Origin: an uncultured Actinomycetes bacterium | GTDB taxonomy: Bacteria; Actinomycetota; Actinomycetes; Nanopelagicales; Nanopelagicaceae | Direction of reading: 5' to 3' | DNA length: 41,229 nucleotides | NCBI GenBank assembly: GCA_903894425.1 | Contig: CAITQC010000011.1 | Coordinates: forward strand, 1-41,229 | Shown here: piece by piece, positions 38,009-41,229 of the stretch | Layout of the letters: every line of letters begins with the position of its first letter | How positions within the stretch are numbered: position 1 is the stretch's first letter | Translations under genes and position numbers: made by a program | The notes under the pieces: generated by a model | What the model saw: the letters and a program-made list of their open reading frames with translations, nothing else | Told to the model about the DNA's origin: nothing | Database searches by the model: none

Positions 38009-38740
38009 TTATTTAATCAAAATCGTTACGTTAACTCCTAAAATTCCTAACTCAGTGCAAGTTCCAAGACGCATTGTTCGATCGGCCGTGGCAAGGCAGA
38101 CAATTTTTTCAGTAAATCCTGTAAGTCCCGAAGGACCGGCTGGTCCTTGATCCCCCTTTTCACCTTTATCGCCCTTTTCACCCTGAATGCCTTGAAAACC
38201 TTGAGGGCCTCCGGACATTCCAGTGTCACCCTTTTCCCCTTTGCGGCCAGATGGACCAGTCGGTCCGGTTGGACCTGCAATGAATGAAGTGGCACTAGTT
38301 TGAATACTGCCATCGGGATATTTTATGCCGCGCGCTGTTCTCAGGAGTCCACGATCGCCTACGTTGCCAATTGTTATATCAGCGGTTGGATCAAGTGCTT
38401 CAATTCCAGTCGCCGTGAATTGAAGGAAACCCAATTGCAAAGCACCGGCATTCCGCACAACTAATCTTCCACCTTCAACTCCCAAAGTGACATTATGGCC
38501 ATTTATTTTGTCAATAAAACTCAAGGAGTTTTCTCCGATATTTATTGACTTCCAACGCATCTCCGAGCTGCCCAAATTGTAAACGTTATCTTTTGAAGGA
38601 ATAAGGTCTGTTAGTGATTTTTGCAACGTTTCTGACGTAGCATCTTTTGCACTTTTCGACCAAGCAAGAGCTGTAATATTTGTACCGCACAGGATTAAAA
38701 TCAGTAGCGCACCGATAACTCGCTTCTTATAAGTATTCAT
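38009..38740 (-). CDS. Secreted collagen-like (GXY-repeat) protein
   Basis: N-terminal hydrophobic signal (RVIGALLILILCGTNITALA); GPTGPTGPSGRKGEKGDTGMSGGPQGFQGIQGEKGDKGEKGDQGPAGPSGLTG; YNLGSSEMRWKSINIG and YPDGSIQTSA upstream. Confidence 0.88.
   Translation of the reverse strand: MNTYKKRVIGALLILILCGTNITALAWSKSAKDATSETLQKSLTDLIPSKDNVYNLGSSEMRWKSINIGENSLSFIDKINGHNVTLGVEGGRLVVRNAGALQLGFLQFTATGIEALDPTADITIGNVGDRGLLRTARGIKYPDGSIQTSATSFIAGPTGPTGPSGRKGEKGDTGMSGGPQGFQGIQGEKGDKGEKGDQGPAGPSGLTGFTEKIVCLATADRTMRLGTCTELGILGVNVTILIK
38118..38275 (-). repeat. Collagen-like GXY coding repeat
   Basis: About 53 aa, mostly Gly at every third residue with one interruption (GMSGGPQG). Confidence 0.88.
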
Positions 38741-38751
38741 TTCTTCCTCCA

Positions 38752-39567
38752 TTAAAATGAGCGGATGGGTCTAACGTGAAATAACGTGGCTTTATTTGCA
38801 TTTCCTTGGTATCCATGACCGACGGATTGGGCCCATCCGCCAACATCAGAAAATTCGGAGGATGACCAATAGTCACCAGAAATCAGACCAGCCGTGCCTT
38901 GCAAGTTCGTACTTAATAGAATCAATTCACCTAAGGATGGTATGAACCAATCTGAAAACTTGTTGCTGTTGCCTAAGTTGTAGTTCTGGACAAGAGTTCC
39001 AGCACCTTGGACGCAAGATAGATTCAAAATTCTGGTATTTGCTCTTCCCGACCCAACTATTCGAGAGTTCCATGAGGTATTGGAGAGTTGAATTATGTGG
39101 GTTGTGTCATCACACCAAGATGTTGTTGGATCGGTTTTTTGGTCTTTTCCACTCCAATTCGCAGGAGCTGCCTCAAGATAAGTAAAAGTTGGGTATCTGT
39201 TATATCTATCTACAAAAAAGACTATTCCCTCGCCAGGGCCTGCGGAACCAACTTCGCAAACCTCCTTTCCTGTTGATCCGCAGACCAACTGAGGCTTAAA
39301 GCCGTTAGCACTTGTTTGTTCGATGGTAGGAAAAACAAAAGGTTGCTCACTTGAGGTCCGACAGGCACCAGTAAAAGTTACTCGCAGCGTACCTGTGGTC
39401 TTATTCATGCAAACTAGATTCGTATCATTAGTAAGAGCATTGAAACTTGATGCAGCTACAACAGAGTCAGGAGTCTGAAAACTAATCATCATGAAGAAAG
39501 TCAGAGCCAAAGCAGATAATGCTATTAACGTCATCCTCAATGAACGCTGACCCTTATTGATTTGCAT
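38752..39567 (-). CDS. Secreted protein with Lcl_C/DUF1566-like C-terminal domain
   Basis: Signal-like N-terminus; SDWFIPSLGELILLSTNL...GDYWSSSEFSDVGGWAQSVGHGYQGNANKATLFHVRPIRSF; AAAGGAGG-type RBS just upstream (aaaggagga). Confidence 0.75.
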   Translation of the reverse strand: MQINKGQRSLRMTLIALSALALTFFMMISFQTPDSVVAASSFNALTNDTNLVCMNKTTGTLRVTFTGACRTSSEQPFVFPTIEQTSANGFKPQLVCGSTGKEVCEVGSAGPGEGIVFFVDRYNRYPTFTYLEAAPANWSGKDQKTDPTTSWCDDTTHIIQLSNTSWNSRIVGSGRANTRILNLSCVQGAGTLVQNYNLGNSNKFSDWFIPSLGELILLSTNLQGTAGLISGDYWSSSEFSDVGGWAQSVGHGYQGNANKATLFHVRPIRSF

Positions 39568-39613
39568 TTCCTAGTCCTCCTTTGCGAACGTACCAAAAGG
39601 AATTCTCCGATTA

Positions 39614-39666
39614 CATTGCCACGAGGATTTGGCATTCACTTCTAATTTGCCTTCCTCGTGGCAATG
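39614..39666. terminator. Long perfect inverted repeat in intergenic space (candidate terminator or processing/regulatory hairpin)
   Basis: cattgccacgagga (39614-39627) and tcctcgtggcaatg (39653-39666) are exact reverse complements, 25-nt loop with an inner ggca/tgcc pairing; weak T-run only. Confidence 0.6.
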
Positions 39667-39674
39667 ATCGGGGG

Positions 39675-41229
39675 CTATTTTCCAGTTACTTTTATTACCG
39701 CTATAGCTGTTGAACCGACTGCGACTTGTAGCGAAGAGTTCGCTACAACTTTGCGAGTTTTTGTGTAGGACTTGGTTGTCCAAGTTCCAGAACTATTAAG
39801 TTGGATCCCAGTGAGGGTGACAAACTTTGTTGCTCCAACTGGACGAAGCTTCAACAATAGTTTCTGGTTTGCATAACCGCGTCCAAGGCTTACGGTTATG
39901 CGCTTTGATCGTCCGGAACCAGTGACCTTTAATAGTTTTAAGGCAGCGTTTCCAGATGCATATGCGATGTAGATACTTGCAGATGCGACGGGTGTGCTCA
40001 CATAAGATGTATCACCTGACTTGAATGTATTGGTAACGCATACACCGACTTTTAACGCTGTGACTATTCCATTTGCATTTACAGCGCATAGTTGTGGAGT
40101 TGAGGTGCTAAAAATCATGGCACCTGTTCCCATTCCTCCGGATGCGACGATGGAGGCGGTGGCACGGACAGCTAACTTAGGAGAAGTCAATCGAACCTTC
40201 ACAGATGTTTGCTTAGCTTTGATACCGAATTGGGTTAAGTGTGAAGTTACGATGACTACTTGGCCATTAGCATCTAGGTAGTAGCCATCGGTAGCTCCTG
40301 CCTGAAGAGTTGTGCCAGTCATTAGGGGGATAGGTGTCCAAGTGATCCCATCATCTGACTTGGCGACAATGTTGTCCCCTAATGCGTTGCGGAATTGAAT
40401 TGTGATTGGTGCTAACAAAACAGGAATAACTCTTCCGAATCCATCAAGCACTTGCACTTCAACTGTTACTAATCCAAGTGCTAATGCCTGTGGGGTCGTT
40501 ACCGGTGTAATGCGGACCACCCCATTCAAGCCTGACACACCAGCAGGTAGGTTAACTGTTACTGGAATGACCGCTCCGTTAAGTCCTTGGACGTTTACGT
40601 TGACGACTTTCGCTTCGTTTGCAAGTACCGGAGTTTCTACTGGATTATCTGGAGTGATTGTTGGTGCTGCAGTCCATTGAGCGAAGAGGGTTAGGTCTGT
40701 AGCAAAGTTATAGCTTGCGCCATTACCGAATGCAGTGCCTCCTCCAGCTGCAATCGTGTTCCAACCTGTGAAGTTAAATCCAGTACGAGTAAATCCATTG
40801 GAACTCAAGGAAGCGGGGATATTAGAAGTCTGTGAAGGTGTTGAACCTGCATCAGATCCATTTCCGTTGAAGGTGACGCTGTGATTTGTAGGTGGATTAG
40901 CAGACCACTGTGCATAGAGAGTGATATCTGCACCGAAGCCATAGCTTGCGCCATTGGCAAAGGCAGTTCCACCACCAAGAGCGACGGTATTCCAACCAGT
41001 AAATGTGTAACCGGTGCGAGTAAAGCCGTTGCTAGTTAAGTTGGTTGCAACATTTGCTGTCTGTGCAGCTGTTGCTCCACCATCTGAACCATTGCCGTTG
41101 AAGGTGACGGTGCGATTTGCAGGTGGGTTAGCAGACCACTGTGCATACAAAGTGATATCTGCACCAGAGCCATAGCTTGCGCCATTGGCAAAGGCAGTTC
41201 CACCACCAAGAGCGACGGTATTCCAACCA
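39675..41229 (-). CDS. Large surface protein with InlB/Listeria-Bacteroides (List-Bact) repeats and Ig-like C-terminal region; 5' end beyond window
   Basis: Frame stays open to the window end; VTFNGNGSDGG...GYTFTGWNTVALGGGTAFANGASYGFGADITLYAQW repeated; ATG not in window. Confidence 0.88.
   Translation of the reverse strand, partial: GWNTVALGGGTAFANGASYGSGADITLYAQWSANPPANRTVTFNGNGSDGGATAAQTANVATNLTSNGFTRTGYTFTGWNTVALGGGTAFANGASYGFGADITLYAQWSANPPTNHSVTFNGNGSDAGSTPSQTSNIPASLSSNGFTRTGFNFTGWNTIAAGGGTAFGNGASYNFATDLTLFAQWTAAPTITPDNPVETPVLANEAKVVNVNVQGLNGAVIPVTVNLPAGVSGLNGVVRITPVTTPQALALGLVTVEVQVLDGFGRVIPVLLAPITIQFRNALGDNIVAKSDDGITWTPIPLMTGTTLQAGATDGYYLDANGQVVIVTSHLTQFGIKAKQTSVKVRLTSPKLAVRATASIVASGGMGTGAMIFSTSTPQLCAVNANGIVTALKVGVCVTNTFKSGDTSYVSTPVASASIYIAYASGNAALKLLKVTGSGRSKRITVSLGRGYANQKLLLKLRPVGATKFVTLTGIQLNSSGTWTTKSYTKTRKVVANSSLQVAVGSTAIAVIKVTGK
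40670..41229 (-). repeat. 231-bp (77-aa) tandem repeat array, at least ~2.4 units visible
   Basis: Landmark atagcttgcg at 40710, 40941 and 41172, spaced exactly 231 bp; the two units nearest the window edge are almost identical. Confidence 0.92.

Follow-up and report, generated by a model that had tools for sequence, protein, structure and literature searches.

A candidate surface-adhesin cassette with adjacent Lcl_C-like and collagen-like genes in a freshwater actinobacterium

Three successive ORFs on the minus strand of an uncultured Nanopelagicaceae genome encode a repeat-bearing protein (FLG), a protein ending in an Lcl_C-like domain (LCL), and a collagen-like protein (COL), and the same trio recurs in the same order in a second genome of the genus. 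We propose, with confidence just short of even, that these genes form a co-translated three-gene surface-adhesin cassette in which LCL would provide the binding head and COL would give reach. The stretch of DNA analyzed (the window, 41,229 nucleotides) covers contig G000:C11 of the source genome in full, an assembly of 1.53 Mb in 180 contigs. Within it, FLG (39675..41228) is represented by the 3' part of its gene, which is cut by the contig end; the encoded product bears List_Bact_rpt repeats and a conserved C-terminal half and, as the upstream member of the cassette, would be a large secreted protein. LCL (38752..39567) and COL (38009..38752) follow, and an NMO/PfaD-like gene (37920-36505) lies after COL in the same direction. 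To our knowledge, little is known about what small planktonic actinobacteria use for attachment to particles, algae, or each other, and FLG-LCL-COL is a concrete candidate for an attachment operon in such organisms.

The LCL gene codes for a 271-residue protein with an N-terminal signal/anchor segment, a small cysteine hairpin (approximately residues 50-78), and an Lcl_C (DUF1566) lectin-like domain at approximately residues 94-271 (38755..39288, minus strand), within which four cysteines (C96, C104, C152, and C185) are nearly invariant among relatives. Its ATG is preceded by a good Shine-Dalgarno sequence (AAAGGAGG). The original prediction assigned this product to the Lcl_C type from its C-terminal motif, and the assignment is upheld by the predicted fold, although the profile score alone falls short: a search with PF07603 returned E 2.7e-5 and 24.9 bits, under the 34.9-bit gathering score, a cut-off that every relative tested, with G250 and G160 among them, likewise missed. 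The weak score of LCL is due to sequence divergence. As a single sequence LCL matched PDB 8q4e, the C-terminal domain (CTD) of Legionella Lcl, with E 6e-4, and a family profile of 11 relatives did so with E 1.2e-12. An AlphaFold2 model built with 23 relatives as input has a domain pLDDT of ~90, and its best PDB match is 8q4e_A (E 2.4e-6, TM 0.70 by target length). In the predicted structure, LCL ends in a domain with an Lcl-CTD-like fold.

Lcl of Legionella (lpg2644; NF046116) is a trimeric, lollipop-shaped adhesin, and the published family is listed from the Pseudomonadota and the FCB group (PMC11162425). The products of the window resemble it in the Lcl_C fold, in a collagen tract with KGD/KGE triplets, and in the apparent secretion of both the collagen part and the Lcl_C part, DUF1566 being C-terminal in its chain. 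However, Legionella Lcl is encoded by one gene, whereas here there are two, with LCL first, and an additional FLG gene; the separate ORFs, which do not place stalk and head on one polypeptide, score 42.3 and 27.7 bits against NF046116, whose cut-off is 500. In an alignment that follows the published numbering (PMC11162425), the GAG-binding residues K369, K380, K385, and K391 correspond to F239, G250, G255, and T261 of LCL, and the trimer-stabilizing Arg342 to a leucine; the cavity residues Glu368 and Asp336 correspond to E238 and D206. The LCL domain is near neutral to acidic (pI ~6) without the four lysines, and it has four conserved cysteines, whereas the Legionella Lcl-CTD is devoid of disulfides (PMC11162425). 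Binding of GAGs in the Legionella manner was rejected for LCL because these lysines are not conserved, and their replacement in a near-neutral domain means that the LCL ligand probably differs from that of Legionella Lcl. Since Legionella Lcl is an adhesin (PMC11162425), surface adhesion or aggregation would, by analogy, be the most likely role here, and LCL would bind either a glycan or the surface of a particle.

COL is a protein of 247 residues whose collagen tract (38111..38275, minus strand) consists of 7 Gly-X-Y triplets, a single interruption (GMSGGPQG) also present in G250, and 11 further triplets. The expected collagen-like nature of this neighbor is confirmed by PF01391 at 27.6 bits, just above the cut-off of 27.2, and the longest Gly-X-X run, of 11 triplets, was reached in none of 20,000 shuffles of the protein's own Gly-rich stretch. 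Ahead of the tract lie an N-terminal hydrophobic segment and a beta-rich domain of ~105 residues (IPSKDNVYNLGSSEMRWKSINIG...GIKYPDGSIQTSA; 38288..38620), which is 40-52% identical to that of other COL-type proteins and is shared with freshwater-virus proteins and with the fused protein of G160. After the tract comes a 34-residue C-terminal cap with a cysteine hairpin (38012..38113), whose profile also hits many of the order's other collagen-like proteins, at E values down to 1e-10. The predicted structure of COL is of low confidence (mean pLDDT 40.6). That COL has its own beta domain and a conserved C-terminal cap argues against its being a bare stalk in need of LCL as a head. Docking of LCL to COL through related cysteine hairpins, one in the LCL N-terminus and one in the COL cap, was also considered and discarded, the cap profile matching the LCL hairpin only at a non-significant E 6.6. 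In the cassette that we propose, COL would be an N-anchored stalk in which the beta domain is followed by a collagen triple helix and the small cap. LCL would be a short protein, either secreted or anchored at its N-terminus, with a lectin-like head of trimer type at its C-terminal end.

The meeting of the two ORFs at 38752 on the minus strand, recognized from the outset, proves to be a 1-nt overlap, TAATG, between the TAA stop of LCL and the first ATG of COL. A second in-frame COL ATG at 38740 (codon 5) is preceded by a far stronger Shine-Dalgarno sequence (GGAGGAAGAA-ATG) and would yield a product of 243 residues; the true LCL-COL gap in the source genome may therefore be 11 nt. The TAATG overlap is kept in G250, where the overlapping ATG is the likely COL start. 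With either start the two genes are tightly coupled in arrangement; they would be transcribed together and are probably translationally coupled.

Conservation was evaluated across 296 genomes of the family (295 relatives and the source; an order-level sample gave the same number), and G250 was located by a search of all 296 with the FLG and COL domains. The expectation that the gene pair is conserved together in relatives holds in this genome alone, so that the LCL-COL pair is present in 2 of the 296. An interim conclusion that the pair is not conserved, drawn from the absence of COL in G095 and G137, was overturned by this finding. G250 carries FLG, LCL, and COL at 36, 47, and 49% identity, respectively, with flanking genes that differ from those of the window and in another chromosomal setting. 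Between the two genomes, codon positions 1 and 2 differ less than third positions in all three genes, which indicates constraint at the protein level on each of the three frames. As judged from sequence, the kept arrangement suggests that LCL and COL work together, presumably displayed on the cell surface. The G250 trio lies near genes for signal-peptidase-like (S26) and camelysin-like (M73) proteins (L208 2712-4497) as well as regulator genes; the source genome has a camelysin homologue on a separate contig, C158.

The C-terminal half of FLG occurs in 20 of the 296 genomes, in five of them (window included) at an identity of at least 41%; for the N-terminal domain of COL the count is 11 genomes. 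In G095 and G137, FLG and LCL are adjacent in the same order, 3 nt apart, and ~40% and ~51% identical to their counterparts in the window; unlike in the window, LCL is shorter (219 residues) and without the cysteine hairpin, and there is no collagen gene. In G170, no LCL lies in the interval from FLG to the ABC-transporter gene, the gene located after LCL in G095. FLG is thus linked to LCL in more genomes than COL is, and is the steadier partner of LCL.

These distributions also fit an account that we rate as a serious possibility, somewhat below an even chance, in which the three genes are operon-mates encoding independent surface proteins; COL would be a capped stalk complete in itself and LCL a self-contained small lectin, with no assembly of head and stalk. 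LCL accompanies FLG without COL in G095 and G137, proteins that lack Lcl_C also carry the conserved COL cap, and the cap shows no significant relationship to the LCL hairpin. COL-type proteins of G132, G198, G039, G129, G199, G211, G215, and G149 have no adjoining Lcl_C gene; the first seven of these share with COL its N-terminal beta domain and in several cases its cap, most have an extra collagen tract ahead of the beta domain, and some carry another domain at the C-terminus. In G132, G039, G199, and G211 (L085, L087, L089, and L211), the COL-type gene is second in a bicistron after a conserved, unrelated membrane-anchored protein of ~190 residues, which gave no Pfam match where tested. Against this independence stand the TAATG coupling, kept between two genomes at ~48% identity, and the occurrence of corresponding parts as a single fused polypeptide in G160. 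Directly upstream of the COL-type operon in G132 (L085 2031-4162) are genes for an ice-binding-like protein and a sortase.

The G160 protein is encoded by a single 417-residue ORF consisting of an N-terminal domain of COL type, then collagen, then an Lcl_C head, and may be read as a Rosetta-stone-like link between the COL-type and Lcl_C parts. Among Actinomycetota relatives, the proteins that fuse collagen with Lcl_C (G160, G009, G124, L100, L102, and L103) belong mostly to LCL's own Lcl_C subfamily, and all run from stalk to head in one polypeptide, whereas here the LCL gene precedes the COL gene. Fused and split forms were surveyed in a second collection (genome_contigs, with the G095 and G137 records included), where 78 classifiable Lcl_C loci besides the window were scored for collagen in the Lcl_C ORF or in two neighbors on each side: collagen is fused to Lcl_C at 6 and absent from both places at 72, and no locus is adjacent-split, the split form of G250 having been found separately. 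A wider pass through all loci collected before G250 gave no second pairing of a collagen-free head with a headless collagen besides that of the window. A Methylococcaceae genome (L165) has three tandem collagen-Lcl_C fusion genes, and the source genome encodes a second Lcl_C protein, L002 (G000:C33), a long protein with IPT/TIG-like repeats and apparently two Lcl_C domains.

In a 56-row Lcl_C tree, a clade of 10 rows (support 100/98) gathers the LCLs of the window and G250, the FLG-linked LCLs of G095 and G137, five collagen-fused proteins (G160, G009, L100, L102, and L103), and a single collagen-free protein from Methylococcaceae; within it, the four actinobacterial LCLs that are not fused group together as an inner clade (100/99). 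By this phylogeny, the split LCL lies on a branch in which collagen fusion is common. A tree uniting the five fused proteins as one clade was not rejected (p-AU 0.63), and G160's relation to the inner LCL clade is therefore not firm. Simple fission of a fused gene was set aside in view of the reversed gene order, and, given the p-AU value, the change between fused and separate genes may have run in either direction.

The idea of a two-gene split Lcl, with which the analysis began, survives in part. The coupled pair kept in G250 and the fused counterpart in G160 speak for it; the reversed order, the beta domain and cap that COL has of its own, and the steadier partnership of LCL with FLG speak against it. 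In the cassette as we envisage it, LCL and COL, as two chains, would supply the equivalent of the single chain found in G160 and other relatives. A more specific model, which we regard as unlikely, is a hetero-oligomeric adhesin in which LCL and COL would associate physically, the Lcl_C head docking on the capped collagen stalk and perhaps also on FLG; this would be the first two-chain Lcl-type lollipop. If such a head-stalk assembly is real, heads could be swapped with the stalk unchanged, and the G160 fusion offers a ready comparison. Both collagen-Lcl_C fusions and a separated, probably co-translated form are now seen in freshwater Actinomycetota.

The closest syntenic relative, G232, has NRAMP, MgtE, and NMO neighbors 79-94% identical to those of the window and, instead of the cassette, an ORF of at least 1868 residues with three Lcl_C domains (L080, G232:C26, 1-5607); other relatives have neither LCL nor COL at this site. 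The giant Lcl_C protein in the cassette's place indicates that the site holds changing surface genes, and it would suit a scenario of recent module shuffling in which Lcl_C and collagen genes were joined there with no lasting functional link. We consider this improbable, since the same trio is found at another locus in G250, and the cassette has therefore stayed together, or been moved as one block, despite strong divergence. Derivation from prophage fiber genes, as opposed to cellular adhesin genes, is very improbable: proteins encoded on 18 viral contigs (L217-L234) match the N-terminal domain of COL at 31-46% identity, one of them (L228) joining it to what we take to be a baseplate-type domain, and collagen-like phage tail families match COL, but the viral homologues are without GXY repeats, LCL and COL both carry N-terminal hydrophobic export segments, and no phage genes were recognized in the vicinity, either in the window or in G250.

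DUF1566 domains can be targets of diversity-generating retroelements. No reverse transcriptase (RT) gene that would point to such an element for LCL was recognized in the window; the genome's one RT match lies on another contig (L251, G000:C140:2522-3010), within an open frame of 1648 residues. The 14-base arm of a stem-loop between FLG and LCL had no other copy in the source genome with up to one mismatch allowed. This strong stem-loop (39613..39667, minus strand) has perfect 14-bp arms and no U-run, the whole region folds at -45 kcal/mol (z -4.95), and the structure is possibly an attenuator or mRNA stabilizer.
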